A stretch of 64,000 nt of DNA. It comes from Strigamia acuminata. Its lineage: Eukaryota > Arthropoda > Chilopoda > Geophilomorpha > Linotaeniidae. The stretch covers positions 12,648,001-12,712,000 of the forward strand of contig OX442319.1 of assembly GCA_949358305.1 (NCBI GenBank), given 5' to 3'. A program made the translations under genes and the position numbers. The notes beneath the pieces are model-generated. The model was not told the DNA's origin. It did not search any database and worked only from the letters and a program-made list of their open reading frames with translations. This document shows, one piece after another, positions 6,380-26,454 of the stretch (positions are counted from its first letter, which is position 1; each line of letters starts with the position of its first letter).

Positions 6380-6571
6380 AATCTGAAATAAATAACTGGA
6401 ATAAATACCTTCAATCATAAGAAATGTGTCAGAATAAAGGCCAGGATGACTTTGAGTCATTTCTTTATCGGATGTAAACTTCCACTGCTGTTCTCCTCTA
6501 ACCACTCCCAACTGGGGTAAATTCAAACAACATTCGGCGACAAAGGTTTGTCAAGGACTAATTGTCTAAGT
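6380..6571. other. 3'UTR and flank of JHEH gene 1
   Basis: AATAAA signals occur about 10 and 25 nt after the stop. No other feature is seen. Confidence 0.5.
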
Positions 6572-7097
6572 TGTTGTGACGGTCTGGAGACAAGATACTT
6601 TGGGGTGAGATGCATGTCACAAAAATAAAGATTATGGACTTGAGATTGTCGGATTTGTGGCGTTTAATCGAAGGAATGAAATGAACAATGAAATGAAATG
6701 AAATGAACAAAAGAAAATGCGCACAATGGCTTGTTACGCACGAAAATGGCGAGAACGTCGTTTGCTTCCAAAAACACACTCATTCGGCTGACGATTGCTG
6801 ACTCCGGAGACTCTCACGGTGGTCCTCGATGGCGGTGGCGAGTGAGAGCACTGCTCGTTAGCAGAGATCACTGAATGACAGTAGAAATGCATGTATCAAT
6901 TGTGGTTGATACACGAAAGTGCTGGCTTTGTGGATGAAGCAAAGATAGCAGGAAATGTCCCAAATTACAAGAAACGTAACACGGTCAGTACTCGTAGTTT
7001 TGGCAGAGCAATGACAAATGTTGACGAATGTTGTATGTTTGGTTGCGAATTCAAGAGTGTGCCAAAACTATATAAAAATTAACTTGAGATCACCACA
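6572..7097 (-). mobile_element. Probable old solo LTR related to the large element
   Basis: Read on the minus strand it begins TGTGGTGATCTCAA, like the intact LTR, and ends ...CCGTCACAACA, comparable to ...CCGGATCGCAGCA. Internally it shares the segment GCTGGCTTTG...CAAAGATAGCAGG with the LTR but with a different loop. A matching 4-bp TSD is not visible, so the exact ends are uncertain. An (ATGAA)n run lies at about 6677-6703. An identical copy sits at 24819-25344. Confidence 0.55.
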
Positions 7098-7689
7098 ATC
7101 TATGGCCCATGCGGCTACTCATGGAGGCTGTGGTGCATCCAACATTACCCGATTGAAAATCGCAGTGGTAATGTGATGATCTGGTACTCTCTGTGGGTTC
7201 GTGTTGGTTAATGAAAACCAATTCAAAATAATTTGAAGTTTCTTGGGCACATAATGTTTTCAGAACTGTACAATCATAATGTTTTGATTAAAAAGGTAAC
7301 TATACACTTGATGCACACGCATCATAATACAGTATAACATGACTAAAAATAAACGCTCTTCAAATGACAGAATCCAACACTTAAGATAAAATGACAAACT
7401 AATATTATATAAAATATTATAAATGATAAAATGCAAATCTCAGTGAATAGGGAATAGGGTGGAGCAGTGCAGAGCATGACCACCTTCTCTGGTTACCAGA
7501 ACACAAGTCTTGCGACTCGGCTCCACACACCACTCGGCGCCCTCCTTCCGCAGCTCCAACTGGTGACAGGCAGCTGGAAATGGCCGCGTGCTATTTGGCC
7601 AATAACAACTGGCAAGGCTGGATTGGATTAACCAATAAACAAAGTAATTACGAGATTTCATATATGGATTCTCTGAATTGCCACACAAT
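7098..7689. other. Spacer of the JHEH tandem unit, first copy
   Basis: No gene recognised. Open frames of about 80 codons (7440-7688 minus, 7580-7822 plus) overlap on opposite strands and lack conserved features. Confidence 0.3.
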
Positions 7690-7931
7690 ATATGACCTTG
7701 AATGCAGGAAAACAGACATCATATATCTGCAGACAGATGGAAAGCACATGGTTGATAAGGTCTGTTTGTTACTTCTCTTTATAAAACTCCTTCCCGCTCC
7801 GTTTGACCTTGTAAATATTTAAGAAACATTTGTGGTGAGCAAACAGAGTCAGTCGTGGGTCTGTTTACACCCTAAAACAACAAGTTTTTCGACATTAAAA
7901 TCCGGAAGAGGAGACAACACATTAAGTAGGT
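7690..7931 (+). promoter_or_regulatory. Candidate 5' non-coding exon region of JHEH gene 2
   Basis: Homologous to 3640-3904 upstream of gene 1 and nearly identical to 25937-26178 upstream of gene 3. It has a TATA-like TTTATAAAAC at about 7784, a TCAGTC initiator-like motif near 7847, and candidate donors GTCTGT at 7760 and GTAGGT at 7926. The LTR element starts about 80 bp further on, so it would sit inside the 5'UTR intron of gene 2. Confidence 0.4.
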
Positions 7932-8004
7932 TTTATTCTTTTATTTTGCTGTACTTACAAACTTGGGGAAATAGTTTAAGAAATTCAGACATGCAATCAT
8001 GCAT

Positions 8005-8008
8005 TGCC
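8005..8008. repeat. Target-site duplication TGCC, left
   Basis: TGCC flanks the element at both ends (here and 22493-22496). The uninterrupted site is visible at about 26249-26256 (GCATTGCCTTTAAA), in the second copy of the tandem unit. Confidence 0.95.
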
Positions 8009-8970
8009 TGCTGCGATCCGGGTTTTTATCCACTTAATTTCTAATAAATTAAGCAGAAACCGCAGGTGAATGCTTTACAAGACTTATATCGCGGCCGAAA
8101 CTTGTCTAGGGTTAAGTTTACGGAAATAGGAATAAAAAGACAGTTTATTATGGTAATAAAAATCACACAAATGTTTTATTCGATAAATTACAATATATAC
8201 TAATTATGATTATGAATATCACAGAATAAAATGAGCGGGAAACAATGAAACAAAGGAAGGGCTTGCAACGACTGTTGCAAGCTACAAAGCGTCAGAAATG
8301 GCGCTTAAACAACTTGAAGTTGTTAGGCGAAGGCAAATTGTCTTCGTTCTACGAACTCACGAACGATGGTCGAAGACGATGGTTCTCGTGGGCTCCTTCT
8401 ACGGCTCGTGCGACGGCTCGGCGGCGGTGGTTGACGGCTGTAGGCGTCCGACTCTCGTACGATGGCGGTGGCTGGCGTTCGCGCGGCAGCGACGGCGATG
8501 GTTCACGATCGTCGGGAAACTTCTTCTTCTCGATTGCTGGAATTAGCTACGGCTAATTCAAGCAGAATTGCTGGCTTTGTGCTTTGGGTGGCACAAAGAT
8601 AGCAGGTGAAACTGAGTTACAACGGTCCTCTATCAATACGTATTGTCGGAGCAGATATCGCAGTGATGTTGAGGTTGTTGTTGTATTTTTCAGAGTCCCG
8701 ATTTGAGCCAAGACGCGAGCCCAGCACGCTTCAATATTGCGCAGAAAACCTGCGCACTTAGCTCAAATGGGTGCAACTAGTGGTTATTACACCATATTGC
8801 ACCATAACGGCTAATAACCGTTTTCACCCCGGACAACCTGGGGTGATATGTGCCTAGAGAGGATTTCTCCCCTCGGTCACATGATCTGACTTGGCGTGTG
8901 CCACAGTCAAATTAATTAGAAGATAATTAATTTAATCTTCTAAGTTGGTGAATATTTTGAGATCACCACA
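8009..8970 (-). repeat. 3' LTR (962 bp)
   Basis: Minus-strand termini TGTGGTGATC...CGGATCGCAGCA (TG...CA). It matches 21531-22492 in length and in all stretches compared. It contains an AATAAA-type signal near 8181 (minus, GAATAAAAC) and a chain of perfect hairpins, for example 8261-8282, 8540-8559, 8575-8598, 8739-8755, 8825-8845 and 8916-8943. A 103-codon frame at 8245-8556 follows from hairpin-rich sequence and is not considered a gene. Confidence 0.93.
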
Positions 8971-8983
8971 CATCCCCCCATTT
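8971..8983 (-). other. Polypurine tract for plus-strand priming
   Basis: On the minus strand AAATGGGGGGATG directly abuts the TG of the 3' LTR, the expected position and composition of the plus-strand primer. The same tract precedes the nested LTR at 16213-16225. Confidence 0.85.
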
Positions 8984-9022
8984 AAGACGAATCTTACATG
9001 GAGAGAAAATGAACGAACCAAT

Positions 9023-11817
9023 TTATGATTCGTCCATGGTCTGAGTTCGCTCAGGCGTCAACGGGCGCATCATATCCGTGGTGTCGTCCCTCGGGTTGGA
9101 CCGCTCGTTAACCGTACACAGGTCGCGACCTGCGTTTGGTCCGGAGACCATTCCAGGGTTGACATGAAGCCAAACCTGGATGATTCTTGCCGAGTTCGCT
9201 CGGTTGAAGAATCCTAGCGCCGCGAACTCGATTGGATCCTCTGGCGCTAATCGTGCTCTCAGGAGTCGATCATGGAGCACCGATGGTGGGCTTAACACCC
9301 GGATGTGGTCCTCGAGCCACATAAACACCTGCCTCGACAACTTGTGGTTGTTGCTAAGCAGTGTTCGCGTATCCGGCGTCAAATAGAAGTGCGGATACAG
9401 GCGCATTAGGGTCTTGAAAGCCGACTCTTTTTTCAGCGGCTTGACCTTCGTCTCCGGCTTGGCTGGCGGCGGCGGCGGACGTGAGTCTTCCGTCGTGGCA
9501 TCGTCAAACTGGCACTGCGGGCCCAAGAAAACCAACGCGGGTGCGGAGGTTGACGAGGGTGTGACGCCTCGTCCCGGTGCTCGACCCACACCGGGGAGCT
9601 GACGGGTTTCGACTACCCGTTGAACTCCGGCTGGAGTTTGAGAACTTCCGGCGTTCTCTGGCCAAAATGAACATCCAGCGCCCTCTTGGGCCGACTGGAA
9701 AACAGCCAGTGACGCAGCTGCTGTGGCGCTTGTAACTGGAAGCGGTGGTCTTCCGGTCATTCGCGCCGTGGCCTTCGCAAAGGACCACTCGGTTCGCAAC
9801 CGAACGGCGGCCTCTTCTTCGGTCTCACCGTTTGCTACGACTTGCTTTATTAGCTCGGCTAAGATCGTAGGCGGGTCGAGCCTGAGGTGGTACCACAGCT
9901 CGACTTTCTTCTCCGACAGGCCCATCGGCGCGGTCCAAAGGTACGTTATGGCCGCTAACGCCTGTCCTGGCGAAGGAAGAACACCAGGGTACAACACCCT
10001 AGTCATCCCCGGAATTAGCTGACGCTGAAAATCCATCAGACGGGGATCATCAATGGTATTGATGTCGGAGACTTCTAGCCTTTCAGCTAGTCTCTGCCAG
10101 TCCTTCTGCGACTCGGCGATCTGGGCGCTTTGGTATGCGTCCAGCTTCTGGAGCACTTCCTGCTGTGCTCTAATGGGTTGCTGCTCGTAGCAGGTCCATT
10201 GTGGGCCGAATGACTCACTAAAAAATGGCCGGAGTTGCAGGTTGCTAACTCCAGCCGGCAAGCGGGAAACATATCCTTGTTCGGGCAAGCGGCTAGCATG
10301 TCCAGGTACTGGCACGCTACAGTCGGGAGAAATATCACCGACAACACGTCTCATGGCGTATGGAGTAGCCGAGTTGTCCACTTTGAACGTGGAGGCGGTT
10401 CGGCTACTTCGGGCGGACTTAATTGTGGAGTCCGATTCAAAACTCAGCGAAGACGACGAGCCAAACGACTCTGGTGTCCGTCCTCGTCGCGACTGCGGGC
10501 GTGATGGCTGCGCGTCAGTCGAATATGGGCGTGATCGCTTCTGACGTTCCTCTCGATCGCGGCTTGATTCGCGGAACATCGGTCGGACTGGAACCGGCGG
10601 AGGGAGTTGCCCCACCCTCAAATCCTCGTCTTGCGGCGGAGGATTGATGGCCGCTGGGGCCGGAATTTCATCTTCTTGATAAAAAGGGAGAGCGCAACGC
10701 GCTTGCTCCTCTGCCTCGTGTTCTCGAGCCAGTTGTCGATTTTCGTCGACGCGAAGCTGCACCGCGGCAGCTCTGAGTGCTTTGGACGGGAAAAATCCCG
10801 GAAAATCGTTAAAACACCCGGCGAGCGCCAACTGGTGGAGCTCGGTTTGTGTGACGGGAAGTTGTGGGTTCCCGTCACGAACGGATTTGCGATACCGTTT
10901 AACGACTTCGCGTTGTGTCGTCTTGAGGTTCTTCCTCAATTGGGTTAGAGCACCGTAATTAATTCCGGTACTCTTTAGCGCTCTTCTGCGCTCGTGACGC
11001 TCTCGTGGCGTCACTGGCCACTGGTTGTGCAGCAACTCTGCTGCAAGCGGTCCTGGGGGGCTCTCGTCGAGCGTCCACTCGATTTCGTCGACACCGTCCA
11101 CGTGAAGGCGCTCGATGAATCTTCCTTTTGCACCAAATCCTTGCAGCGCTGATCTGCTGAAGTCGTGGCGCAACTTCCACCAGGTATTGTTTGCCGTCTT
11201 CAGTCTTCTGATTTTTTCGGGCAATGCCGCTCGAAAAATCAGCGGGTGCTGGGTCGGCACATGATCGGGGAGCGCAAACGGCGTCTCTCGATCCCTCTCG
11301 ATCTATATTTGAAAAAATAAATAAATAAATTAGTTTATTTAAAAATAAACAAATAATTTCTTATTTGAAATATTTTTTTAAGCTTAGCGCTTGTGGCCGT
11401 GAGCCACTAAGGGATGTTGGTTGTCATGGCAACTCCCTTCGCACATGCTTGAAGCACGTGACTTTTATAGCCGCCATTTTTATTTTTTAGCGGCTTGTGT
11501 TTGAAGTCAGGAAAAGTGAAATTACTCAATTTTTCTGACTGAAACACCAAGTGAAAATTATTTTAATAATTTACCCTCTGTTGTAACGATAATTGGACAT
11601 CGTTACCGGCTCCTTCCATCGGCGTTTCTTCGTCCGCATGGAGGTTGACTTCGTCGTCTGCCATTCGTTTTCTTTTTCGCGTCGAAAAAGAAATTCTTTC
11701 GGCTAGAAAGAAGTAATAAACTATATTAAATATATTTATCGAATTTTTCTTTCAGAAAAATAACTTACAGTTTGCTGAATCAATAAAAACTGTCGTGTGG
11801 TATCGGAGTCGATGCAT
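9023..11817 (-). CDS. ORF3: spliced extra ORF in the env position, function unknown
   Basis: Downstream of pol on the element's sense strand. A 745-codon frame (11260-9023) has no ATG at its start, but it extends in frame to an acceptor at 11302. Upstream exons fit in matching phases: 11702-11575 (128 nt, with a basic TRKRKR patch followed by an acidic MADDEVNLH segment) and 11817-11769 (starting at the first ATG after a stop), with introns of 66 bp (11703-11768) and 272 bp (11303-11574). The predicted product is about 818 residues, Arg/Pro/Gln-rich in the middle, with helical segments near the C-terminus. No signal peptide, fusion peptide or membrane anchor is visible, so it does not look like an envelope protein. 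A nuclear or nucleic-acid-binding role is only suggested by the basic patch. Confidence 0.6.
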
Positions 11818-11886
11818 CCACTTTGAAACTTATCGGAAAAGTGGCTAAGTTCGTTGATTGGAGAAACGAACTTGTTTCGGTGACAC

Positions 11887-11955
11887 CGAATGACGTCACA
11901 AATTATAACGCATTGTGAACGTTGTCATTTGAGTGTGAACTACGAATGACGTCAC
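11887..11955. promoter_or_regulatory. Paired CRE-like TGACGTCA sites upstream of ORF3
   Basis: The sequence CGAATGACGTCAC occurs twice in the same orientation (11887-11899 and 11943-11955), between the pol stop and the first ORF3 exon. TGACGTCA is the palindromic CRE/ATF site. The pair could act as an internal promoter for ORF3; this is inference. Confidence 0.4.
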
Positions 11956-12006
11956 GGGATTGCTCTCTCGGATCTTTTGGGTAAACCCAAAAGGTGAAAG
12001 ACAACA

Positions 12007-15000
12007 CTATGTCTTGGCTCGCGGAACGCGAGATCTCAAGTTGTACTTTGACTTTCGCGAAGTACAATCCAACTTGTTTAGATTGTCATCAGCATCGTCT
12101 CCAATGTCAGATGAGTTATATACTTCATTGTTTGAAATTTTCTCTTTTTCTAAAAACATTTCCTTTTCTAGATTTTCATCAAGAGAAACATTTTCAAGTC
12201 GCTGGTTTATTTCATCGACTTCGTTATTTTTGAGTTTCGATTTTTTACTCGATTCCGTGTTTTCGACAGGAATTTTGGATAATTTAGCATCATCCAAGGT
12301 ATTAACAATATTTTTTGTTTTTTGACCCACTTCCTCCCCTTCCAGCCAAATTTCTTGGTTGAAAACGGGAAAGTACGGCATTAATTCAGTGCCGTGAACA
12401 GCTGGATAAATTTTATTATCACTCAGCCGTCGAAGTTGAAAGGCGCCTCCTTGTAACCTTTTGATAATTACATAAGGCCCATTCCTTTTCGGTGAAATGC
12501 CTGCTGCTATTCCTTTAGCGGCATTTGAGAGAATATGAGACTCTCGCCAGACTAAATCATTTTGTCTGAAGTTGTCGAATTTCTTATCTGATTTTTCAGC
12601 TTCGACACGGCGTCTCAAATCTAAGACGTGAGACATCATATGCTGATACGTCTCTGCAATTATTGTTTCTAATTTCTGAACATATAAATGCGGATTTTTT
12701 GGATCAATGACTAAAATTCCTTCCGGAATTCTTGGATCCCAAGGAATTCTTAATTCTCGGAAAAAATTTAAGAAAGCAGGAGAATAATCTCTGCCTCTTG
12801 TTACAGTTGTTCTCAAACTGAATGCAAATTCGCGTAGATACTCATCCCATTGGTCATGAATATCTAAATAAATCGAAACTAAATATTTAATATCTCGATT
12901 GGTTCTCTCCACAGGATTGCTTTGTGGATGATAAATCGATGTCGGTGTTCGCGACATGTCGAATTTTTTGCAAAATTCTTTATAGACCTGTGATCGAAAT
13001 TGTGGTCCATTATCACTTATGATTTGTCTCGGAAATCCGAAAGTCATTGATAAGTGATAAATTGTGTTGGCAACTTTTATTGCCGTTGGATTACACATTG
13101 GAAATAATTCGGGCCAATGTGTAGCGACATCTACGATGACGCAAATGTGGGTATTGTTTTTTCTGGTTCTTGGTTTGGGACCAGACAAATCCACACTGAG
13201 GCAGTCAAATGGTCCAAATGGTCCAATTTGAGCGCCTTCAATTTCGGTCTTTGATCTCGGCTTACATGCCTGACATCCTTGACAATGTTGAATAAAACGT
13301 GTAATATCACGTTTCATACCTTTCCAGGTATAAACTCTTCGAGTTCGGTACATTGTCCTCGCAATGCCTGGGTGGCCGGACAGTGGATGTCCGTGCATCA
13401 ACCAAATGATTTTATAAATCAATTTTCTTGGCACAACAACTTTAAGTGCCCTACCATCCTCTCCCAATTCATCGGTGGAGGTAGGATGATAATGGAGTAG
13501 CATATCTTCTTCAATGAGATAAGTACTCGCGTGTCTTTCAAAGTTTCTTCTTTGAAGACGAGTTACTATGTAACTTGGATATTGCTTGTTTAGCAAGTAA
13601 TTGCGAATATGTTGGCAAAATTCGTCTGCTTTTTGCGCTGCAATAATGTCATCTCTCGTTGGAGGATCACATTCTAATTGCTTCGCAATTTTAGCTGCAA
13701 ATGCTTTAATTAAAACATTTGTTGTTGGCAGCTCGAATTTTTTAGCCATCATAGCTCTTAATTCGACGTCAGGGGTTCCTGACGGATCATGCATGTTAAT
13801 ACAAAAATTAATTAATGCTTGATCGTCGTCATTAACTATTATTGACTTGGGTAATTCGTTCAATTTTCCCATTTGCCAACTTCGGCAAGGAGATGGACAA
13901 TATGATAATAAATCATCATTATCGCCATCGTCTTCTGGTTCGTCAGGTGCGCTGACAGGTGCACGTGACAATGCGTCTGCTATTACATTTAGCGGACCTT
14001 TGACGTATTGTATTTCGAACGAATACGCCATCAGCTCCATTTGCCAACGAGCTAATCTGCCCGACGGGTCAGATAACGACATCAACCACTTAAGTGCTTG
14101 GTGATCCGTTTGTACAGTGAATGTAGTGTACTCTAAGTATGGGCGAAATTTGCGTAATCCCCATACTACTGCGAGACATTCTAATTCTGTCACAGTATAA
14201 TTCTTTTCAGCGGGTTGCAAGCTTCTGCTTGCATACACGCATGGCATTTCGACTTCTTGGCCATCCACATTTTTCTTTTGTGTAAGGGCTGCACCCAACC
14301 CTTGTTTACTGGCGTCAGTATGAACAATAAATGGCATGTACAAGTCAGGCATCTTCATTGTTTCAGCATTCGTAAGCAGGTCTTTTATTGCGTCGAATGC
14401 TGCTTGATGATGCAGTTCCCAATCGAACTCCGCATCTTTCTTCAAGAGTGGCCTTAGTGGTTCTGCCACTGTGGCCAAATTCTTGATTAGGCGGTGAAAG
14501 AAATTCACCATGCCTAGAAATCTTTGTAATTCCTTAAGATTGGTAGGAGCAGGAAATTGCGTAATTGCAGCGACTTTTTTAGGGTCTACTGCAAGTCCTT
14601 CTACTCCTACTTTGTAGCCTAGAAAAATTAATTCCTTTCTACAGAGATGCGTCTTGCCAGGGTGCGCATGTAAATTAGCTTCTGCCAATTTTTTAAACAC
14701 TATATCTAAATGTTTAATGTGTTCTTCGAACGATTTGGATACAACAATTATGTCATCCAAATATGCCCATGCAAATTTTCTGTAAACGTCACCCAAAACC
14801 TTTTCCATCAATTCTTGGAAAGTAGTTGGTGCGTTTACTAATCCGAAAGGCATGACTAAAAACATTAGTCTTCCCATTGGGCTCCAGAAGGCAGTTTTTT
14901 CTCTGTCTTCAGGTCGCAATTCTATCTGCCAATATCCCTTGGTCAGATCTATAGTACTGACCCATTCGAATTCTCCGATTTCTCGCAGAATTTCCTCAAT

Positions 15001-15100
15001 TGTTGGCATTTGAGGTGGGTTGTACTTAGTATGTGTATTGATGGGGCGAAAATCAATGCACAAGCGTGGGTCGTTTCCTGGTCGCATGACTAGGACTGGC
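12007..15100 (-). CDS. pol: Pol: reverse transcriptase, RNase H and integrase (upstream part separated)
   Basis: Open frame 15087-12007 (1026 codons). RT core motifs are present with the YLDD catalytic box at about residues 109-112. The tether/RNase H domain starts at the VHTDAS motif (about 258). The integrase has a zinc-binding HHCC region (HPLSGHP ... CQGCQAC), the first catalytic Asp region (VDLSG), ISDNGPQF and the Glu in NPVERTNRD. A charged tail follows and lacks a recognisable chromodomain. The frame does not start with a natural initiator: its N-terminal RT residues lie in 17240-18372, across a nested insertion. It copies element RNA and integrates the cDNA. Confidence 0.93.
15082..15100. 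repeat. 19-bp duplication flanking the nested fragment, left
   Basis: TCGCATGACTAGGACTGGC occurs here and at 17221-17239. Its last 9 bp (AGGACTGGC) also occur in the inserted element's own sequence (about 10101-10109 on the minus strand), so the left junction lies in microhomology. Confidence 0.92.
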
Positions 15101-16173
15101 AGAGACTAGCTGAAAGGCTAGAAGTCTCCGACATCAATACCATTGATGATCCCCGTCTGATGGATTTTCAGCGTCAGCTAATTCCGGGGATGACTAGGGT
15201 GTTGTACCCTGGTGTTCTTCCTTCGCCAGGACAGGCGTTAGCGGCCATAACGTACCTTTGGACCGCGCCGATGGGCCTGTCGGAGAAGAAAGTCGAGCTG
15301 TGGTACCACCTCAGGCTCGACCCGCCTACGATCTTAGCCGAGCTAATAAAGCAAGTCGTAGCAAACGGTGAGACCGAAGAAGAGGCCGCCGTTCGGTTGC
15401 GAACCGAGTGGTCCTTTGCGAAGGCCACGGCGCGAATGACCGGAAGACCACCGCTTCCAGTTACAAGCGCCACAGCAGCTGCGTCACTGGCTGTTTTCCA
15501 GTCGGCCCAAGAGGGCGCTGGATGTTCATTTTGGCCAGAGAACGCCGGAAGTTCTCAAACTCCAGCCGGAGTTCAACGGGTAGTCGAAACCCGTCAGCTC
15601 CCCGGTGTGGGTCGAGCACCGGGACGAGGCGTCACACCCTCGTCAACCTCCGCACCCGCGTTGGTTTTCTTGGGCCCGCAGTGCCAGTTTGACGATGCCA
15701 CGACGGAAGACTCACGTCCGCCGCCGCCGCCAGCCAAGCCGGAGACGAAGGTCAAGCCGCTGAAAAAAGAGTCGGCTTTCAAGACCCTAATGCGCCTGTA
15801 TCCGCACTTCTATTTGACGCCGGATACGCGAACACTGCTTAGCAACAACCACAAGTTGTCGAGGCAGGTGTTTATGTGGCTCGAGGACCACATCCGGGTG
15901 TTAAGCCCACCATCGGTGCTCCATGATCGACTCCTGAGAGCACGATTAGCGCCAGAGGATCCAATCGAGTTCGCGGCGCTAGGATTCTTCAACCGAGCGA
16001 ACTCGGCAAGAATCATCCAGGTTTGGCTTCATGTCAACCCTGGAATGGTCTCCGGACCAAACGCAGGTCGCGACCTGTGTACGGTTAACGAGCGGTCCAA
16101 CCCGAGGGACGACACCACGGATATGATGCGCCCGTTGACGCCTGAGCGAACTCAGACCATGGACGAATCATAA
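15101..16173 (+). pseudogene. Truncated ORF3 copy within the nested fragment
   Basis: The C-terminal part of ORF3 (337 codons from the first in-frame Met at 15160) is identical in translation to the end of the host element's ORF3, and nearly identical in DNA. It lacks the upstream exons and starts at the junction. With 9023-10110 it forms a long inverted repeat. Confidence 0.9.
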
Positions 16174-16225
16174 ATTGGTTCGTTCATTTTCTCTCCATGT
16201 AAGATTCGTCTTAAATGGGGGGATG

Positions 16226-17184
16226 TGTGGTGATCTCAAAATATTCACCAACTTAGAAGATTAAATTAATTATCTTCTAATTAATTTGACTGTGGCACAC
16301 GCCAAGTCAGATCATGTGACCGAGGGGAGAAATCCTCTCTAGGCACATATCACCCCAGGTTGTCCGGGGTGAAAACGGTTATTAGCCGTTATGGTGCAAT
16401 ATGGTGTAATAACCACTAGTTGCACCCATTTGAGCTAAGTGCGCAGGTTTTCTGCGCAATATTGAAGCGTGCTGGGCTCGCGTCTTGGCTCAAATCGGGA
16501 CTCTGAAAAATACAACAACAACCTCAACATCACTGCTTTTGCTCCTGAAAGAAAAGTATTGATAGAGGACCGTTGTAACTCAGTTTCACCTGCTATCTTT
16601 GTGTATCAAACGCACAAAGCCAGCAATCCTGCTTGAATTAGCCGTCGCTAATTCCAGCAATCGAGAAGAGAAGATTCCCGACGATCGTGAACCATCGCCG
16701 TCGCTGTTGCGCGAACGACAGCCACCGCCATCGTACGAAAGCCGGACGCCTACAGCCGTCAACCACCGCCGCCGAGCCGTCGCACGAGCCGTAGAAGGAG
16801 CCCACGAGAACCATCGTCTTCGACCATCGTTCGTGAGTTCGTAGAACGAAGACAATTTGCCTTCGCCTAACAACTTCAAGTTGTTTAAGCGCCATTTCTG
16901 ACGCTTTGTAGCTTGCAACAGTCGTTGCAAGCCCTTCCTTTGTTTCATTGTTTCCCGCTCATTTTATTCTGTGATATTCATAATCATAATTAGTATATAT
17001 TGTAATTTATCGAATAAAACATTTGTGTGATTTTTATTACCATAATAAACTGTCTTTTTATTCCTATTTCCGTAAACTTAACCCTAGACAAGTTTCGGCC
17101 GCGATATAAGTCTTGTAAAGCATTCACCTGCGGTTTCTGCTTAATTTATTAGAAATTAAGTGGATAAAAACCCGGATCGCAGCA
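16226..17184 (+). repeat. LTR of the nested fragment (959 bp)
   Basis: TG...CA termini, directly preceded by a polypurine tract and followed by CG and the primer-site sequence. Compared with the 962-bp LTRs of the host element, the visible changes fall mainly in hairpin loops, for example within 16597-16619 and 16635-16654. Confidence 0.92.
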
Positions 17185-17186
17185 CG

Positions 17187-17225
17187 TGGGGGCCCGTCCG
17201 GGATTTGAACCCGGGACCTCTCGCA
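17187..17225 (+). other. Primer-binding site extended into 39 nt of tRNA-Pro complement
   Basis: The first 18 nt (TGGGGGCCCGTCCGGGAT) equal the element's primer site. The next 21 nt continue as the complement of a tRNA-Pro T-arm, variable loop and 3' anticodon stem (GGTTCAAATCC on the opposite strand). Counting from CCA, the match covers tRNA positions 76 to 38. The last five bases (TCGCA) are also present in the target. No complete tRNA gene is present. Confidence 0.88.
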
Positions 17226-17239
17226 TGACTAGGACTGGC
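17221..17239. repeat. 19-bp duplication flanking the nested fragment, right
   Basis: Second copy of the sequence at 15082-15100. Pol sequence resumes beyond it. Confidence 0.92.
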
Positions 17240-18372
17240 CGCATTCCGTAATCGCCTTCAGCTTTGACGACTACGCCTTTGTCAATCATGTCTTGACAAA
17301 GTTGTCTGATTATTTCCCTTTTTTGAGGGTTTATGCTCTTAAAGGGGACACGGATGGGTTTCTCCGTGTCAAGCTCAATTTTGTGCTTAACCAGGTGTGT
17401 TTTACCTGGATCTTTAGAAATAATCCTTTTATGTTTGGATAACATCTTTTCTAATAATTTGGATTGCTCCAAATTTAAGTTAGCTTCTTCGACTAACTTT
17501 TGGATGAAATTCTCTTCATCAATTTTGCCTTGAGTTACACTTGCAGCGTAAGCTTTTGCAAAGGTCATAAATGAGGAATCGGGTTCCTCTATTTTCTCCA
17601 AATAACGATCCAGCAACGCTTGTGGAATGTAGGGTAAATCTGCATCCATAGGTTGCGTGAAATTCCAAGACATCGTCTGTGGATTAGGTTGGATTTTTAA
17701 TTTATTCATAAAATCGCAACCCAATAGTACCATTGGATACTTATTTGGTATTACGATGAACGGATGACGTAACGTGCCATGTGTCCATCGAAATGAAAGA
17801 TGGATGGTTCCATCTGGAGTGACTTCTTCACTTGCCGTCGTAACTCTGACACCAGGTCCGATAGGTCGTAGATATTTTTCTAGACCTAGTTGATTAATAA
17901 CTGAAGTGGCTAGGAAGCTTTTATTTGCTCCTGAGTCCAACATTCCGGTTATTACACCTTTTAACGTTTCTAACTTTAACGTCGGAAGGTCTTGGCTGTT
18001 TGGTATTCCAGCCACTTTGCACTCAAACTTGCGCAATTTATGAGGAACTGTAATTGGAGGCTCCAAAGGCAATTCATCTAATAACTCATTGGTATCAAGA
18101 GTTGTAGCTGCAAATAACTTAATGCACTCCTCAATTCCAGGTGTCTCTGGAACTGAGCTTGGTCTATCGTCTTTAACTTCGACTTTATCTTGAATATTGG
18201 AAGTGTCTTCTTCAGTCGGGGTTTCGCCGACAATCTCCTTTTTTACATCAAGAGATCCTTTTTCTTTTAGTTCTGTTTGACGAATTAATTCATCAATAAC
18301 TTCTCCAACATCTTCCATTATCTTCAGATTTTCATTCTCTGATTCCGATTTCGGAGGTGACGCAGCGTCCAC
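17240..18372 (-). CDS. pol: Protease and N-terminal reverse transcriptase part of Pol, truncated by insertion
   Basis: Acidic N-terminal region, then an aspartic protease with the DSGA active site (about residue 145 from the Met at 18372; flanking GMLDSGANKSF) and the start of RT. The natural pol frame begins by -1 frameshifting at the end of gag rather than at this Met. The frame runs on into the nested fragment and stops at 17149, with tail residues derived from tRNA and LTR sequence. The protease would cleave Gag and Pol. This copy cannot make full-length Pol. Confidence 0.85.
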
Positions 18373-18405
18373 TAGACCTGATGGATCTGCGTCTACAAGT
18401 TTTTT
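18359..18405 (-). promoter_or_regulatory. -1 programmed ribosomal frameshift signal at the gag-pro junction
   Basis: The heptamer A_AAA_AAC (18405-18399) lies in the gag frame two codons before the gag stop TAG (18395-18393). The pro frame is exactly -1. A 5-nt spacer is followed by a perfect 7-bp stem GACGCAG/CTGCGTC (18393-18387 with 18365-18359, 21-nt loop). This is the classic slippery-site plus stem-loop arrangement. Confidence 0.88.
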
Positions 18406-21400
18406 CGAAACATGTCAGTTATGATCTTGACTGCTTTTTCAAACTCAGCTGTTGACACTGGTTTGTCCTTTTTAGAGGATGGGCAGTCTTTTTGCCAATG
18501 CCCTAATTTTTTGCATAAATTGCATGGATCAGTGGCAGGCGATTTCTTTTTCGTTGCTGCTGGCGAGGCAGAACGAGAACGAGCGTCAGACCGGCGCTCT
18601 GGCGACACCGCAGGTGACTTTGAATTCCTTTCGGTATTCACCTTTGATGCGTCAAATGAAACATTTTTTGGTTTCATTTTTGGCTTCCATTTGCCTGCAA
18701 CGGGGTTATTTTTTGCTAACAACGCCGCTGCTTTGGCCAATAAAGCCAACGTCTCATCTCCCGCTTCCTCCTCCTCTTCAGCTTCTTCAGCTTCAGATGG
18801 CGGAGTTTCAGCTCCAGTTATATTGGCGTGTAACTTAGGGACTGAATGAGGATTTTTGACGTCCTTTTTGGAAGATTCTTTTTTCGAACTCTTCCCTTCC
18901 ACCTCGTCTAGAAAGTCTTCGTAACTAGGTGGCTGCAACAATTTCAAACCATTGAAGGTTTCATTGTTTTGCTCAGCGAGTCTTTTCTCTCGCTTTAAGT
19001 ACGCTGACCTTTCGCTATCTGTAAGGTAAGCTTTGTACTTTTCGTCAATGCGCAATTGATTGACCTCCATGAACTCGTTTAACTCGGAGAATTTCCCCGG
19101 GTCGGGAGCGTCCGACATCATCAGAATATTTTTACTATATTCTGTGAGGCCAGCTCTAAACTGATCATCTGCTGTTGCATCAGTAACAGCGTGTGGCATT
19201 CTGCCAAGCAGATTCTCTGCTCTTAGCATGTACGAATGTAAGCTTTCGCCTTTTCGTTGCTTAAGACATCTCCAGAGCGTTTTGATGTCTTCGCTCGATT
19301 CACCAAATTTAAACATGAATTGTTTAACGAAGTCATCCCACTTCGTGAAGTCTTTCCTGCGAAACCACTCCTTGACACCGCCAACTAGTATTCTTGGTAC
19401 TAGATGGGCCAATGCACCTTCACAGCTAAAACTGTGAACTTTGCCTAGTTCGAATATTTCCAGCAAGAGGTTTGACCCTGCTTGCCAATTTCCATTATAG
19501 GCATGTGGGATAACTCGATCCCATCTAATGAACTTTTCATCTGTTGTTTGATGAGTCCATTTATCAGAAGTAAATTCACTTATTTTTTGCAAAATAATTT
19601 TATCCCTTCTGCTTTTTCGCTGTTGTTGAGCATTTTGCCTCAACAACTGGTCAATCTCATCTTTCGTGTAGAAATCGGGTCTTTGAGTTCTACTACGTGT
19701 TCTGTGACGAGATCGCCCTCTCACACTGGGACGTGAGGAATCTGTATCTGACGCAGATTCATGATTCGGATTTGGCGGCGGATCAGGGTCCGGAGGATCG
19801 TCGCCATCTGGCGGACGACGGTCTCCATTTGGTGGTCCCCTTCCATTTCGATTGCCATTCGAATTGTGGTCACGTGAGTGGCCACCTCCATGTCCATCTG
19901 AACTATCTCCACCTGGTGGGTCACCACCTGGCGGATTTCCACGGTATCTCGGCCCATCACGGATGTCGTTATGACAATCTCGTTTTGGTGAGCCTTCTCG
20001 CGGATTATCGTGTGACCGTCCACGATCGTGTGGTTTCTCACGTTCTTTATTCTTTTTCTCTAGCATTCCGATTAATCGGTCGCTATTGCTAAAGAATCGA
20101 TCCGAATCTTGCGTAACTTTTGGGGAATGATATTCGGTCGGGTCTGGTTGTCGCTTTCGCTTTTTGCGACTGTGATGACTGTTACGGCTTCCACGACTAC
20201 TGCGTGAGTCATCACTGTCAGTCCAACTTGATTGTCGACTGACTTTTGGTTTAGCTGATGTTAAATCAATCAACTCAGGTGATTTGGAAGCACCTTTTTG
20301 CAAAACTGGGGCTGGCTTTGCAAAATTATCTTCGCCACAAACGTCTTGTACTTTTTGTACTACTACTGCAAAGTTCTCTTGTACCGTCAATAGATCTGCG
20401 CGAAGAATTTCGTTTTCACGAGCTTGCGCAGCTAAGTCGGCACGTAATAACTGCTCTGCAGTACTTTGACTTTTGGCGGCTAGACCAGCATCAATTACGG
20501 ACTGCTGTCGAGCGAGAAATACTTCGTTTTCTCGTTGTGCTAATCTCTTAGCTCTTGCTGCTTGCTCTGCAGCATGATTCTCGTAATTTCGAGAAGTGGA
20601 GGGAATTACTTCCCTCGCTCGAACTGGGGCGGTTAGTTCGGCAGTCATTAAATTTGTGTTGGCTTCTCGCAAATTTGCGTTGGCCAATCTCAAATTTTCA
20701 TTAGCAATTTCTAAATCTTTTTGGGCTTGATTTAGTTGCTCGAGCCTTTGTTGTTGCTCTTCGTCAGTAATTAGCCAGGAAGCTTTTTCCTGTTCTAATT
20801 GTAACAACTTAACATGGTCATTCGCACGTTGTTGTTTTAGTTCGGCATTTTGCTGATGCATTTCTGCATGCATTCGCTCGAACTCTGCTTGCAAGCTTGT
20901 TCTGACGATTTCAACGTCCTTTTGGCTTTGTTTGCGAACCATAGCTTTGTGGATTTGTTCCACAGTCATTTCGCTAGTGACTTTTACTCCCTCGAGCCTA
21001 GCTTGCTCACGGAGTGCGTCCATCATGGTAACACGCACGGGAGAATGAGAAACTTCCATATTGGAGTTCTCAGAATTTTGCTGTGCTGCACCTTGAACCG
21101 GTGATGAATTCAGCGAGTGCTCTGCACTTGATGATTGAATTCGTAAATTCAAATCATCGTTTTGCGACTTGGAACGGCCACTTCCAGTTGGATTGTTTAA
21201 GTCCAACTGGCCGCTGGGCGGGGATGGCTGTTGTCGCTCCAACGCTTGCGTGAATTCATTCACGATTAACTGTGCCGAGTTACAGTTAGCTGTTTGATCC
21301 ATAGTTTCAAACAGTTCTTGTGACTCAGTCACTTCTTGATCCACGGCTGGTAGATCGATCGCCACTCGTCTCTTCGCTGGTCTGCCTCTCGGTCTCTTTT

Positions 21401-21416
21401 CGCCTGGAGTCGCCAT
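18393..21416 (-). CDS. gag: Gag polyprotein of the LTR element
   Basis: 1007 residues from ATG at 21416, 94 bp after the primer site. It is long for Ty3/gypsy. The N-terminal third is Gln/Glu/Ala-rich and predicted coiled coil (about 150-350). An Arg/Ser/Pro/Gly-rich disordered segment (about 400-590, including SRHRTRSRTQ) follows, then a capsid-like domain (about 610-800, WDRVIP...KEWF...YMLRAENLLGR). A CX2CX4HX4C zinc knuckle (C965 to C978) lies near the C-terminus. It would form the virus-like particle and bind element RNA. The reading frame is intact. Confidence 0.9.
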   Translation of the reverse strand: MATPGEKRPRGRPAKRRVAIDLPAVDQEVTESQELFETMDQTANCNSAQLIVNEFTQALERQQPSPPSGQLDLNNPTGSGRSKSQNDDLNLRIQSSSAEHSLNSSPVQGAAQQNSENSNMEVSHSPVRVTMMDALREQARLEGVKVTSEMTVEQIHKAMVRKQSQKDVEIVRTSLQAEFERMHAEMHQQNAELKQQRANDHVKLLQLEQEKASWLITDEEQQQRLEQLNQAQKDLEIANENLRLANANLREANTNLMTAELTAPVRAREVIPSTSRNYENHAAEQAARAKRLAQRENEVFLARQQSVIDAGLAAKSQSTAEQLLRADLAAQARENEILRADLLTVQENFAVVVQKVQDVCGEDNFAKPAPVLQKGASKSPELIDLTSAKPKVSRQSSWTDSDDSRSSRGSRNSHHSRKKRKRQPDPTEYHSPKVTQDSDRFFSNSDRLIGMLEKKNKEREKPHDRGRSHDNPREGSPKRDCHNDIRDGPRYRGNPPGGDPPGGDSSDGHGGGHSRDHNSNGNRNGRGPPNGDRRPPDGDDPPDPDPPPNPNHESASDTDSSRPSVRGRSRHRTRSRTQRPDFYTKDEIDQLLRQNAQQQRKSRRDKIILQKISEFTSDKWTHQTTDEKFIRWDRVIPHAYNGNWQAGSNLLLEIFELGKVHSFSCEGALAHLVPRILVGGVKEWFRRKDFTKWDDFVKQFMFKFGESSEDIKTLWRCLKQRKGESLHSYMLRAENLLGRMPHAVTDATADDQFRAGLTEYSKNILMMSDAPDPGKFSELNEFMEVNQLRIDEKYKAYLTDSERSAYLKREKRLAEQNNETFNGLKLLQPPSYEDFLDEVEGKSSKKESSKKDVKNPHSVPKLHANITGAETPPSEAEEAEEEEEAGDETLALLAKAAALLAKNNPVAGKWKPKMKPKNVSFDASKVNTERNSKSPAVSPERRSDARSRSASPAATKKKSPATDPCNLCKKLGHWQKDCPSSKKDKPVSTAEFEKAVKIITDMFRKNL

Positions 21417-21510
21417 TTTTCAAATGAAGAAAAAGAAAGGATAGAGAAGAAAGATAAGCAAGATAAAAATGGCGGGTAAATTTTAAACTATCAAAATTTA
21501 TACAATGACT

Positions 21511-21528
21511 ATCCCGGACGGGCCCCCA
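21511..21528 (-). other. Primer-binding site, tRNA-Pro
   Basis: Minus strand TGGGGGCCCGTCCGGGAT, separated from the LTR end (CA at 21531) by CG. It is complementary to the 18 3'-terminal nucleotides of tRNA-Pro, stopping one base before A58. Confidence 0.9.
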
Positions 21529-21530
21529 CG

Positions 21531-22492
21531 TGCTGCGATCCGGGTTTTTATCCACTTAATTTCTAATAAATTAAGCAGAAACCGCAGGTGAATGCTTTAC
21601 AAGACTTATATCGCGGCCGAAACTTGTCTAGGGTTAAGTTTACGGAAATAGGAATAAAAAGACAGTTTATTATGGTAATAAAAATCACACAAATGTTTTA
21701 TTCGATAAATTACAATATATACTAATTATGATTATGAATATCACAGAATAAAATGAGCGGGAAACAATGAAACAAAGGAAGGGCTTGCAACGACTGTTGC
21801 AAGCTACAAAGCGTCAGAAATGGCGCTTAAACAACTTGAAGTTGTTAGGCGAAGGCAAATTGTCTTCGTTCTACGAACTCACGAACGATGGTCGAAGACG
21901 ATGGTTCTCGTGGGCTCCTTCTACGGCTCGTGCGACGGCTCGGCGGCGGTGGTTGACGGCTGTAGGCGTCCGACTCTCGTACGATGGCGGTGGCTGGCGT
22001 TCGCGCGGCAGCGACGGCGATGGTTCACGATCGTCGGGAAACTTCTTCTTCTCGATTGCTGGAATTAGCTACGGCTAATTCAAGCAGAATTGCTGGCTTT
22101 GTGCTTTGGGTGGCACAAAGATAGCAGGTGAAACTGAGTTACAACGGTCCTCTATCAATACGTATTGTCGGAGCAGATATCGCAGTGATGTTGAGGTTGT
22201 TGTTGTATTTTTCAGAGTCCCGATTTGAGCCAAGACGCGAGCCCAGCACGCTTCAATATTGCGCAGAAAACCTGCGCACTTAGCTCAAATGGGTGCAACT
22301 AGTGGTTATTACACCATATTGCACCATAACGGCTAATAACCGTTTTCACCCCGGACAACCTGGGGTGATATGTGCCTAGAGAGGATTTCTCCCCTCGGTC
22401 ACATGATCTGACTTGGCGTGTGCCACAGTCAAATTAATTAGAAGATAATTAATTTAATCTTCTAAGTTGGTGAATATTTTGAGATCACCACA
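21531..22492 (-). repeat. 5' LTR (962 bp)
   Basis: Same length and ends as 8009-8970. On the minus strand it starts TGTGGTGATCTC at 22492 and ends CGCAGCA at 21531. It should carry the element promoter; no obvious TATA box was found. Confidence 0.93.
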
Positions 22493-22496
22493 TGCC
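22493..22496. repeat. Target-site duplication TGCC, right
   Basis: Pairs with 8005-8008; the sequence then continues TTTAAATAAA as in the empty site. Confidence 0.95.
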
Positions 22497-22695
22497 TTTA
22501 AATAAAATAAAAAAAGAAAATAAATTCATTTTATTTGCTGGTTTCAAAGTACAAAAACCGATTTTTTTTCTCGGTATCGTTATCGATAAACCTAGATTTT
22601 TTTTCTATTACTGTATTTATTTTAAAGACGTCTTATACTTTTAATTTGTAAAATGTTTTTAATGAGTTGATTTTATCTTTTATTTCCCAGCTACA

Positions 22696-24626
22696 ATGGC
22701 ACTTCTGAAAATATTATTTTATTCACAACTATTGTTAGCAATCATTTCAGGAGTTTGGTGGAAGTATGGCCACAAATTGTGTTCTGAATCCGAACTGCCA
22801 GCGTTGAAAAATAACTGGTGGGCCAAAGAACCAAAAGACAAGTTTCTTGCAGATAACAAAATTCGTCCTTTTAAAATTGCAGTATCAGATGAGGTAAATA
22901 AAAATAACAATAACAATACATAACAATAGAATGACAACAATATATCATTTCTGTTGATTCTGAAGGTGTTGGTTGATTTGAAGTCAAGATTGCAAAACAC
23001 CAGATTAAGTGAACCATTGGAAGATGCAACCTTTGAATATGGATTTAACTTAAACTATCTAAAGGAGATTGTCGAGTATTGGAAAACAAAATACAACTGG
23101 CGAGAACATGAAAAAATATTAAATCAATTTGATGGTTACAAAACACAAATAGATGGAATCGATGTCCACTTCCTGCACGTAAAACCCAAAAACATTCCCG
23201 CAAACAAAAAGGCAAGTAAAATGAAAACTCCAGATATAAGTGGCGGACGGACACCACGTGGTCAGGGAAAAACCGCAAGATAAGAAAAAGACTTCTAGAC
23301 GCTCCAAGATTTAGGTTAAATGACCTTTATTCTATTTGTCTCGGGGCCAGTGTCTCTAAAGTGCATTATTGGTGTCTTGATCTTAGACCACAGTGAATTT
23401 AATTTTCATTGCTTCTTTATTTTATGCCATTTATCATTTATGACAGGTCTTGCCATTATTACTCATTCACGGCTGGCCAGGATCTGTGTATGAATTCTAC
23501 AAAATCTTGCCTATCTTAACATCTCCTAGAGAAAACAGTAGTTTTGTATTTGCAGTGATTTGTCCACACATTCCTGGATATGGATTCTCTGAAGCACCAC
23601 ACAGAGCAGGCATGTTTGCATATGGACCGGAGTAATATTGTAAGGCTTACTTTTTGTTTGTGTAGGTTTTGGACCTTTAGAAGCAGCTCAGACATTTGAC
23701 ACACTCATGAGCAGACTTGGGTTCCACAAGTACTACGTGCAAGGAGGAGACTGGGGCAGTTTCATAGCAACTCACATGGCATTGTATTTTCCAAAGCGGT
23801 TTGTGTTTAAATAGCCTTTTTGGAATTTACAGGTTAAAAAAAACTGTACAAGTTTCTTGCAGAGTCAATGGATTGCACATCAACATGGCGCCGATTGCTA
23901 CAACAGGTCAATTTGTTAAACTTCTTATTGGATCTTTATGGCCATCACTTTTAGTCGAGGATAAAGACTACAATCTAGTCTATCCTATGACCAATAAAAC
24001 TATGTTTCAATTGGCGGAAAGTGGTTATCTTCACATCCAGGCAACTAAGCCTGATACTGTTGGTTTGTAGAATCATTTAGAGAGTCAATTCTTGTAAAAC
24101 ATTTATTTTTTTTCCAGGAGTTGGTCTCAATGATTCTCCAGTAGGATTAGCAGCGTACATATTGGAAAAGTTTAGTACTTGGGTAAATCCATCTTATAGG
24201 ACACTGGCAGATGGAGGATTGACCAAGAAGTTCAGTTTAGATGAATTATTGACTAATGTCATGGTGTATTGGACAACTGGTAGTATTACGTCTTCTGTTC
24301 GTTTTTACAAAGAGTTCTTCCAGCAGTATCACCTGAAGATCATTCCAGAGTAACTTATTTATTTGTTTGATTTCATATTTTACTCTGATTTTGGAAATTT
24401 GTATTTATTTTTTTCCAGACACTTTGTCAATGTTCCATCTGCAATTGCAGTTTTTCCTTACGAGATATCCTGTGTACCAAAGTCGTTGACTCATCACCAG
24501 TTTAATAATTTAATGCAGTACACGAACATGCCTCGCGGTGGGCATTTTGCTGCATTTGAAGAGCCAAATTTGCTGGCTGATGATGTTTACTCTTTTGTGC
24601 AAAAAGTTGAAGCTGCCAAAAATTAA
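22696..24626 (+). CDS. Juvenile hormone epoxide hydrolase, gene 2 (chimeric)
   Basis: Seven exons (22696-22893, 22966-23211, 23447-23609, 23666-23798, 23863-24062, 24118-24349, 24419-24626) give an intact 459-residue JHEH. It has HGWPGS, GGDWGS (Asp231) and GGHFAAFEEP and the same two GC-AG introns. Exons 1-2 are identical to gene 3 (for example FYSQLLLAIISGVWWKYGH), whereas exon 3 after the HGWPGS motif through exon 7 is identical to gene 1 (for example TSPRENSSFVFAV). It is a product of unequal crossing-over. Its coding start follows a splice acceptor (TTTCCCAG), so the 5'UTR is probably split by the 14.5-kb element upstream. Membrane-bound hormone catabolism is expected from the family. 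Confidence 0.9.
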
Positions 24627-24818
24627 AATCTGAAATAAATAACTGGAATAAATACCTTCAATCATAAGAAATGTGTCAGAATAAAGGCCAGGATGACTTT
24701 GAGTCATTTCTTTATCGGATGTAAACTTCCACTGCTGTTCTCCTCTAACCACTCCCAACTGGGGTAAATTCAAACAACATTCGGCGACAAAGGTTTGTCA
24801 AGGACTAATTGTCTAAGT

Positions 24819-25344
24819 TGTTGTGACGGTCTGGAGACAAGATACTTTGGGGTGAGATGCATGTCACAAAAATAAAGATTATGGACTTGAGATTGTCGGA
24901 TTTGTGGCGTTTAATCGAAGGAATGAAATGAACAATGAAATGAAATGAAATGAACAAAAGAAAATGCGCACAATGGCTTGTTACGCACGAAAATGGCGAG
25001 AACGTCGTTTGCTTCCAAAAACACACTCATTCGGCTGACGATTGCTGACTCCGGAGACTCTCACGGTGGTCCTCGATGGCGGTGGCGAGTGAGAGCACTG
25101 CTCGTTAGCAGAGATCACTGAATGACAGTAGAAATGCATGTATCAATTGTGGTTGATACACGAAAGTGCTGGCTTTGTGGATGAAGCAAAGATAGCAGGA
25201 AATGTCCCAAATTACAAGAAACGTAACACGGTCAGTACTCGTAGTTTTGGCAGAGCAATGACAAATGTTGACGAATGTTGTATGTTTGGTTGCGAATTCA
25301 AGAGTGTGCCAAAACTATATAAAAATTAACTTGAGATCACCACA
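24819..25344 (-). mobile_element. Second copy of the old solo LTR
   Basis: Duplicated with the tandem unit; equivalent to 6572-7097 at offset 18247. Confidence 0.55.
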
Positions 25345-25936
25345 ATCTATGGCCCATGCGGCTACTCATGGAGGCTGTGGTGCATCCAACATTACCCGAT
25401 TGAAAATCGCAGTGGTAATGTGATGATCTGGTACTCTCTGTGGGTTCGTGTTGGTTAATGAAAACCAATTCAAAATAATTTGAAGTTTCTTGGGCACATA
25501 ATGTTTTCAGAACTGTACAATCATAATGTTTTGATTAAAAAGGTAACTATACACTTGATGCACACGCATCATAATACAGTATAACATGACTAAAAATAAA
25601 CGCTCTTCAAATGACAGAATCCAACACTTAAGATAAAATGACAAACTAATATTATATAAAATATTATAAATGATAAAATGCAAATCTCAGTGAATAGGGA
25701 ATAGGGTGGAGCAGTGCAGAGCATGACCACCTTCTCTGGTTACCAGAACACAAGTCTTGCGACTCGGCTCCACACACCACTCGGCGCCCTCCTTCCGCAG
25801 CTCCAACTGGTGACAGGCAGCTGGAAATGGCCGCGTGCTATTTGGCCAATAACAACTGGCAAGGCTGGATTGGATTAACCAATAAACAAAGTAATTACGA
25901 GATTTCATATATGGATTCTCTGAATTGCCACACAAT

Positions 25937-26178
25937 ATATGACCTTGAATGCAGAAAAACAGACATCATATATCTGCAGACAGATGGAAAGCACATGGTT
26001 GATAAGGTCTGTTTGTTACTTCTCTTTATAAAACTCCTTCCCGCTCCGTTTGACCTTGTAAATATTTAAGAAACATTTGTGGTGAGCAAACAGAGTCAGT
26101 CGTGGGTCTGTTTACACCCTAAAACAACAAGTTTTTCGACATTAAAATCCGGAAGAGGAGACAACACATTAAGTAGGT
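25937..26178 (+). promoter_or_regulatory. Candidate 5' non-coding exon region of JHEH gene 3
   Basis: Equivalent to 7690-7931, with one visible substitution (A at 25955). The distance to the coding start at 26455 is about 280 bp here, against about 14.8 kb for gene 2. Confidence 0.4.
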
Positions 26179-26454
26179 TTTATTCTTTTATTTTGCTGTA
26201 CTTACAAACTTGGGGAAATAGTTTAAGAAATTCAGACATGCAATCATGCATTGCCTTTAAATAAAATAAAAAAAGAAAATAAATTCATTTTATTTGCTGG
26301 TTTCAAAGTACAAAAACCGATTTTTTTTCTCGGTATCGTTATCGATAAACCTAGATTTTTTTTCTATTACTGTATTTATTTTAAAGACGTCTTATACTTT
26401 TAATTTGTAAAATGTTTTTAATGAGTTGATTTTATCTTTTATTTCCCAGCTACA

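Follow-up and report, generated by a model that had tools for sequence, protein, structure and literature searches.

The window analyzed here, a stretch of 64,000 nucleotides from Strigamia acuminata (contig OX442319.1, positions 12,648,001 to 12,712,000), was compared with the entire assembly (237.5 Mb in 157 contigs). It contains a Ty3-type LTR element whose pol gene is interrupted by a fragment of a sister copy, inserted antisense to pol. Host element and fragment comprise the following features (coordinates refer to the window; + and - denote the strand).

8005..8008, no strand: left copy of the 4-bp target duplication TGCC of the host, with the right copy at 22493-22496
8009..22492, -: host Ty3-type LTR element with type-B LTRs, its pol interrupted by the fragment
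8009..8970, -: host 3' LTR, 962 bp, identical to 21531-22492
12007..15087, -: host pol downstream of the insertion, with reverse transcriptase (RT), RNase H and integrase (open reading frames and Pfam)
15082..15100, no strand: left copy of the 19-bp repeat, holding the left 9-bp microhomology AGGACTGGC at 15092-15100
15092..17225, +: nested type-A sister-copy fragment, smallest extent 15101-17220 (sequence comparison)
15160..16173, +: ORF3 remnant in the fragment (open reading frames)
about 16213..16225, +: polypurine tract before the fragment LTR (by eye)
16226..17184, +: fragment LTR, type A, 959 bp, TG...CA
17081..17090, +: ACCCTAGACA in the fragment LTR, of which CCCTAGAC is complementary to the tRNA-Pro D arm; not significant alone in the window LTR
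17149..18372, -: host pol upstream of the insertion, with an aspartic protease; the reading frame continues into the fragment
17187..17204, +: primer binding site (PBS), 18 nt, complementary to tRNA-Pro nt 76-59
17205..17225, +: tRNA-Pro complement past the PBS, nt 58-38, 21 nt
17221..17239, no strand: right copy of the 19-bp repeat, holding the right 5-bp microhomology TCGCA at 17221-17225
21511..21528, -: host PBS, 18 nt, followed in the element by AGTCATTG
21531..22492, -: host 5' LTR, 962 bp, identical to 8009-8970

A nested sister-copy fragment in pol

Pfam searches placed RT, RNase H and integrase of the host in one frame and the aspartic protease in the preceding frame; a gag zinc knuckle stayed below the cut-off, and the third open reading frame (ORF3) of the host gave no match. 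The order protease, RT, RNase H, integrase applies to host and donor alike and is that of Ty3/gypsy-type elements, as are the TG...CA LTRs, the PBS after the 5' LTR and the polypurine tract before the 3' LTR. The host element is young. It lies within a tandem repeat of ~3.76 kb (5186-8009 versus 23431-26256 at 99.8%, and 22493-24659 versus 26252-28417 at 95%) that carries open reading frames with an epoxide hydrolase N-terminus match (22954-23283 and 26713-27042). Positions 29000-62000 of the window hold a cluster of repeated genes, and two of three open reading frames tested there weakly matched a C-type lectin domain, below the Pfam cut-off.

The insert runs from the ORF3 remnant through the polypurine tract and the LTR to a CG spacer, the 18-nt PBS and 21 further nucleotides of tRNA-Pro(AGG) complement. 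Its largest extent is 2,134 bp; subtraction of the two microhomologies leaves 2,120 bp, the length that a first-pass annotation, made from the letters of the window alone, had assigned to a nested fragment in pol. The fragment is not a plus-strand strong-stop DNA in the strict sense, as it starts ~1.1 kb upstream in ORF3 and not at the polypurine tract/U3, nor is it a canonical integrase insertion, given its left end in ORF3, the tRNA tail at its right end and a repeat of 19 bp. It does have the makeup of an over-extended plus-strand product, i.e. LTR and PBS with tRNA complement of more than 18 nt that ends before nt 37, and so do three loci elsewhere in the genome (L081, L082 and L091).

In the alignment of fragment and host LTR, 16 mismatches and 7 gap openings are all confined to 16536-16742. 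The fragment's version (type A) was matched over 281 bp without any difference by 40 of 40 sequences scored out of 428 candidates; the version of the host (type B) is common as well, with 99-100% identity among 40 scored of 412 candidates, the host's own two LTRs counted. Judged by LTR type, donor and host are different sister copies, and an origin of the fragment from the host itself was ruled out by the same distinction (A in the fragment, B in the host). Comparison with five 3' ends revealed no difference from the type-A copy L032 over 15096-17179 and 2 to 6 listed differences from the other four; outside the LTR difference, the fragment is at the sequence level indistinguishable from type-A copies.

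The target duplication of 19 bp reported in the first-pass annotation was recovered as an exact repeat, TCGCATGACTAGGACTGGC, and proved composite: TCGCA is shared by target and tail end, TGACT belongs to the target alone, and AGGACTGGC is common to target and donor ORF3. The annotation had also pointed to microhomology at both junctions, which amounts to 9 bp at the left and 5 bp at the right joint. In simulations of random joints (400,000 trials for each side), the left type reached an overlap of 9 bp or more in 3.75e-5 and the right type an overlap of 5 bp or more in 1.4e-3 of the trials. Since such overlaps are rare in random joints, annealing probably guided both joints of the window. All 134 bases of the right junction were found in the window only among 40 scored of 593 candidates, the others ending at 78-79; with no second copy of the interrupted right junction among these 40, propagation of the interrupted copy was rejected. 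The uninterrupted pol site had 141 matches in the genome at up to 3 mismatches (100 of them listed). Reversed-pattern controls for four genome pattern searches, including those for this site, the tRNA tail and the tail survey, gave 0 matches.

The tRNA-Pro tail and its counterparts in the genome

The final 39 nt of the insert are the complement of tRNA-Pro(AGG) nt 76-38 with 39/39 identity (numbering by hand, from T arm and anticodon stem), and the first base after them is T, where G37 of the tRNA template would give C. The proposal of a 39-nt tRNA-Pro tail in pol that runs past A58 and ends at nt 38, adjoining G37, was confirmed, the stretch past the PBS covering nt 58 to 38. A chance match was ruled out by the full identity and the empty reversed control. 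An exact 35-nt sequence occurs at four places in the genome, namely the window, two intact tRNA-Pro(AGG) genes and a truncated tRNA-Pro-like copy in which ARAGORN called no gene. The latter (G000:C3:13907038-13907072; L043, L093) is without the normal 5' part and has an intact gene for tRNA-Pro(AGG) ~1.1 kb away. Because the tail end falls inside the 5-bp microhomology, the window alone is no proof of a stop at G37.

A long PBS native to the window's family was ruled out by the bases that follow the 18-nt PBS at related loci. The family itself has AGTC directly after the PBS. Behind a window-type LTR end, the PBS was followed by AGTCATTG in 31 readings (some of them the same place), by TGTCATTG in 2 readings from one place and by TAGTCATTG in 1; TTGAACCC appeared in 4 readings, every one the window itself, and TTAGAA in 26 that belong to another LTR family. 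In two 5' LTR copies of the window's family (L003 and L002), the position right after the PBS shows an extra T in one and T for A in the other; these may look as if tRNA A58 had been copied and kept, or may be plain mutations.

The genome was surveyed for the PBS plus tRNA-Pro complement as far as nt 52 (a 25-nt pattern, at most 3 mismatches). The pattern sees tails reaching nt 52 and calls for T at nt 58, such that shorter tails and a misread A58 are partly selected against. Of the 15 places retrieved, 10 follow an LTR-like end and 5 are tRNA-Pro genes or tRNA-like sequences (L088, L089, L092, L093, L094), with an ARAGORN gene at the match in 4 of the 5. Over nt 58-38, the numbers of matches out of 21 were 21 for the window, 21 for L081, 20 for L082, 21 for L091, 15 for L084 and 17 for L085, compared with 11 for L080, 9 for L087, 9 for L086 and 8 for L090. 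Over nt 37-17, the first six fell to about chance (5, 8, 6, 5, 3 and 6 of 21, in the same order), and the tails in the window, L081, L082 and L091 drop to chance from G37 onward. These four clean loci represent at least three LTR groups: that of the window, the family of L081, and a group formed by L082 and L091 (79% over 263 bp). The sequences downstream of the tails differ between loci. The first-pass annotation had proposed to tabulate LTR ends followed by more than 18 nt of tRNA complement; with the same nt 38 end at three further clean loci, the observation is stronger than first claimed, because the tail end recurs.

The remaining LTR-associated places are less uniform. L084 and L085 have LTR ends in common with L087. 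The L084 tail is decayed and compatible with an end at nt 38; that of L085 is ambiguous, since most of its differences from the tRNA past nt 44 are transitions (by eye), so that it may extend beyond nt 38. L086, L087 and L090 show no continuation to nt 38. L080 was rejected as a dead-end tail, since it looks like a native leader and is followed by a 470-aa frame. All six tail candidates carry T at nt 58, the base that the search pattern called for, which would fit an A58 that was unmethylated or faithfully read. Identities to genome relatives of 69-84% (L081, LTR part), 70-96% (L082) and 72-83% (L091, LTR part) suggest that these three insertions are not recent. That the same end recurs at such decayed loci speaks for a genuine end before nt 37, which could reflect an m1G37 block or a cleaved tRNA.

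Several tRNA-Pro-primed LTRs also carry a ACCCCTAGACAAC-like sequence with complementarity to the D arm of tRNA-Pro, reminiscent of the two-part PBS with D-arm pairing in Ty3 (PMC5371799). Such sites lie about 87-352 bases before the PBS in the window (17081-17090), L082, L085, L087, L090, L052, L056, L075, L081, L097 and L098, and L085 and L087 have 15 contiguous nucleotides complementary to the D arm. Against 200 block shuffles, the D-arm score was reached by 0/200 in 5 of 16 LTRs and by at most 12/200 in 10 of 16, the LTRs being partly related and not independent; Gln and Asn controls came to 12/200 at best. The score did not stand out in the window LTR (25/200), L006, L091, L080, L084 and L086.

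Origin of the joint and of the tail end at nt 38

The other tails met different fates. L082 consists of a full LTR of 517 bp with a TG start, followed by AT, PBS and tail; it begins at U3, and its right end is the tail. Its flanks, CGAA on the left and TGAA on the right (one mismatch), correspond to a single CGAA in the related empty site L095. The unmutated tail terminus is CA, as in LTRs, and now reads TA in L082. The L082 flanks match what integrase leaves if one C-to-T change is allowed, suggesting that integrase can use such a tail end; the locus may have arisen by strong-stop insertion, or from a full element of which only a solo LTR was left later. L091 is without roughly the first 180 bp of its LTR, and for neither L091 nor L084 was a target duplication established. 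In L081 (1540-1741), a partial LTR plus tail is followed after 21 nt by an antisense 5' LTR of its own family, and a search for more own-family LTR to the left, sense or antisense, gave nothing above 20 shuffles each. L081 is a second case of a tail adjoining antisense sequence of its own kind, possibly through another strand switch onto its own sense strand.

For the window, the right end of the fragment is a copy of the tRNA-Pro primer that passes nt 58 and extends to nt 38, and each end is joined at a microhomology. Our preferred reading, in which we place middling confidence, is that a type-A copy gave rise to the fragment as a dead-end product of reverse transcription, which stopped before G37 and was joined before integration. 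The tRNA would still have been attached to the minus strand, A58 of the primer would have been unmethylated or faithfully bypassed, and plus-strand synthesis would have halted before G37, probably m1G37 if modifications in other organisms are a guide. The 21 extra bases would have been unable to pair with the minus-strand copy of the PBS, causing normal strand transfer to fail. With less certainty, the joint would have been made in a particle containing type-A and type-B RNA: the growing type-B minus strand ending AGGACTGGC may have switched in ORF3 onto type-A minus-strand DNA, been extended along it through polypurine tract, LTR and PBS and into the tRNA as far as nt 38, and returned with its TCGCA end to the type-B RNA, 19 nt behind the point of departure. 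The recombinant element would then have integrated normally, in line with the identical host LTRs and the TGCC repeat on both sides.

Break joining and template switching fit equally well at the level of bases. We lean to the strand switch because the target is a sister element of a family that makes up only ~0.7% of the genome (141 sites x about 12.3 kb, rough arithmetic), because the host copy is young, and because a step back of 19 nt is similar to the spacing of polymerase and RNase H sites in reverse transcriptases. This route is burdened by its need for two RNAs of different LTR type to have been together, as the fragment LTR is of type A and that of the host of type B, and by the fact that a repaired break in a resident copy yields the same sequence. 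Such a repair event, in which over-extended type-A cDNA patched a staggered double-strand break with 19-nt 3' overhangs in a resident type-B copy via microhomology, is quite conceivable even though we do not favor it: both joints have microhomology, and donor and host are different copies. Capture of Ty1 cDNA at double-strand breaks has also been a subject of earlier work in yeast, where Ty1 LTR cDNA is known from such sites. Insertions of the Ty1 3' LTR at yeast breaks contained cDNA-only nucleotides in 40/56 cases (PMC10802722). A random break would, however, strike the family in roughly 0.7% of cases, and two nicks 19 bp apart would be needed. The first-pass verdict of end-joining and not integrase stands insofar as the fragment is not a canonical two-ended integrase insertion, but not with end-joining as the sole reading: template switching gives the same junctions and better explains the sister-element target, and at L082 a tail of this kind goes with a full LTR between flanks that, but for one mismatch, form a 4-bp duplication such as integrase produces. 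Nor does it follow that plus-strand synthesis must have started internally, since the left end, within a 9-bp microhomology, may be a strand switch.

Integrase might also have acted at one end only, attaching the CA end of the tail to pol with a 5-bp TGACT stagger, followed by microhomology repair of the left end. The tail does end in CA, the repeat reduces to the 5 bp of TGACT if the insert is taken at its largest extent, and L082 combines a tail end with a 4-bp duplication; we nevertheless consider this improbable, as the family's own duplication is 4 bp (TGCC) and the TCGCA match at the right joint would have to be fortuitous (1.4e-3). An assembly artefact joining a type-A LTR to pol could be suspected from a junction found once in a family with about 140 uninterrupted sites (40 of 593 junction candidates scored), yet the same tail end is seen at other decayed loci with unrelated flanks, and an exact 19-bp repeat together with both microhomologies is, in our judgement, atypical of a misjoin, making this explanation hardly credible. 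A separate question, compatible with either joining route, is whether the stop reflects run-off on a primer that was the 3' half of tRNA-Pro, cut between nt 37 and 38. Plus-strand synthesis reaching the end of such a primer would yield the same uniform nt 38 end, and half-tRNA or anticodon-loop-cleaved primers are known from Drosophila copia and Ty5 (PMC5371799). Primers of the copia/Ty5 type, however, are extended from the internal cut, while in this family extension starts at the 3' CCA end (the PBS starts with TGG), and we regard run-off as rather unlikely.

Relation to known over-extended products

The proposed halt before nt 37 has a parallel in HIV-1. On native tRNA-Lys3, m1A58 is the main stop of plus-strand synthesis, and minor products end at nt 55, nt 54 and ms2t6A37; the ms2t6A37 product is absent from the usable ones listed in that account, and mutation of the m1A58 enzyme lets synthesis extend beyond A58 (PMC13191261). 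Like the over-extended plus-strand strong-stop DNA obtained there in vitro, the window tail passes A58 and ends just before nt 37, whose modification is putative here; unlike it, it involves tRNA-Pro with G37 and a Ty3-type element of an animal genome, and the products are fixed in genomic DNA. Methylation at position 37 is linked with tRNAs reading most C-starting codons, m1G37 with E. coli tRNA-Pro (PMC13191261), and modifications of G37 are typically m1G (PMC5939049). The primer over-extension sequence of lentiviruses and spumaviruses (PMC13191261) has a counterpart in some families of this genome, whose leaders carry tRNA complement beyond the 18-nt PBS, in L080 to nt 51 and in L087 to nt 54. 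These two are leader-type sequences, for L080 evident from its 470-aa frame, and not dead-end tails, and the window's family differs by its AGTC. Dead-end plus-strand strong-stop DNA is described for Ty1 and Ty3, in which the first plus strand likewise copies the tRNA and is not used further, although 12 nt of tRNA are copied there and 39 nt here (PMC5371799). Ty1 capture shares with our case that 3' LTR fragments with cDNA-only nucleotides land in chromosomes (PMC10802722), but the window fragment went into a sister element, carries a long copy of tRNA as its tail, and was joined at a merely putative break. The window fragment represents a variant of event types already known. A literature search, mostly among non-subscription papers, turned up no description of LTR tails in a genome that end at nt 38 of tRNA-Pro, which is weak evidence of absence.

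Tentatively, the G37 block may even provide over-extended cDNA with an integrase-ready end, CTCTCGCA, with CA as in an LTR; the element's integrase could then spread the tRNA 3' half with a 4-bp duplication, as may have happened at L082 (LTR plus tail between CGAA and TGAA), besides the microhomology route of the window. To our knowledge, the extent to which plus strands copy the primer tRNA is known mainly from in vitro and virus-infected-cell work. A genome that keeps failed products lets its DNA show where reverse transcriptase stopped on a natural tRNA. The recurrent end suggests nt 37 as a second barrier once A58 has been passed, and if cases like L082 are integrase events, the tRNA sequence itself would help to decide whether a failed cDNA integrates.
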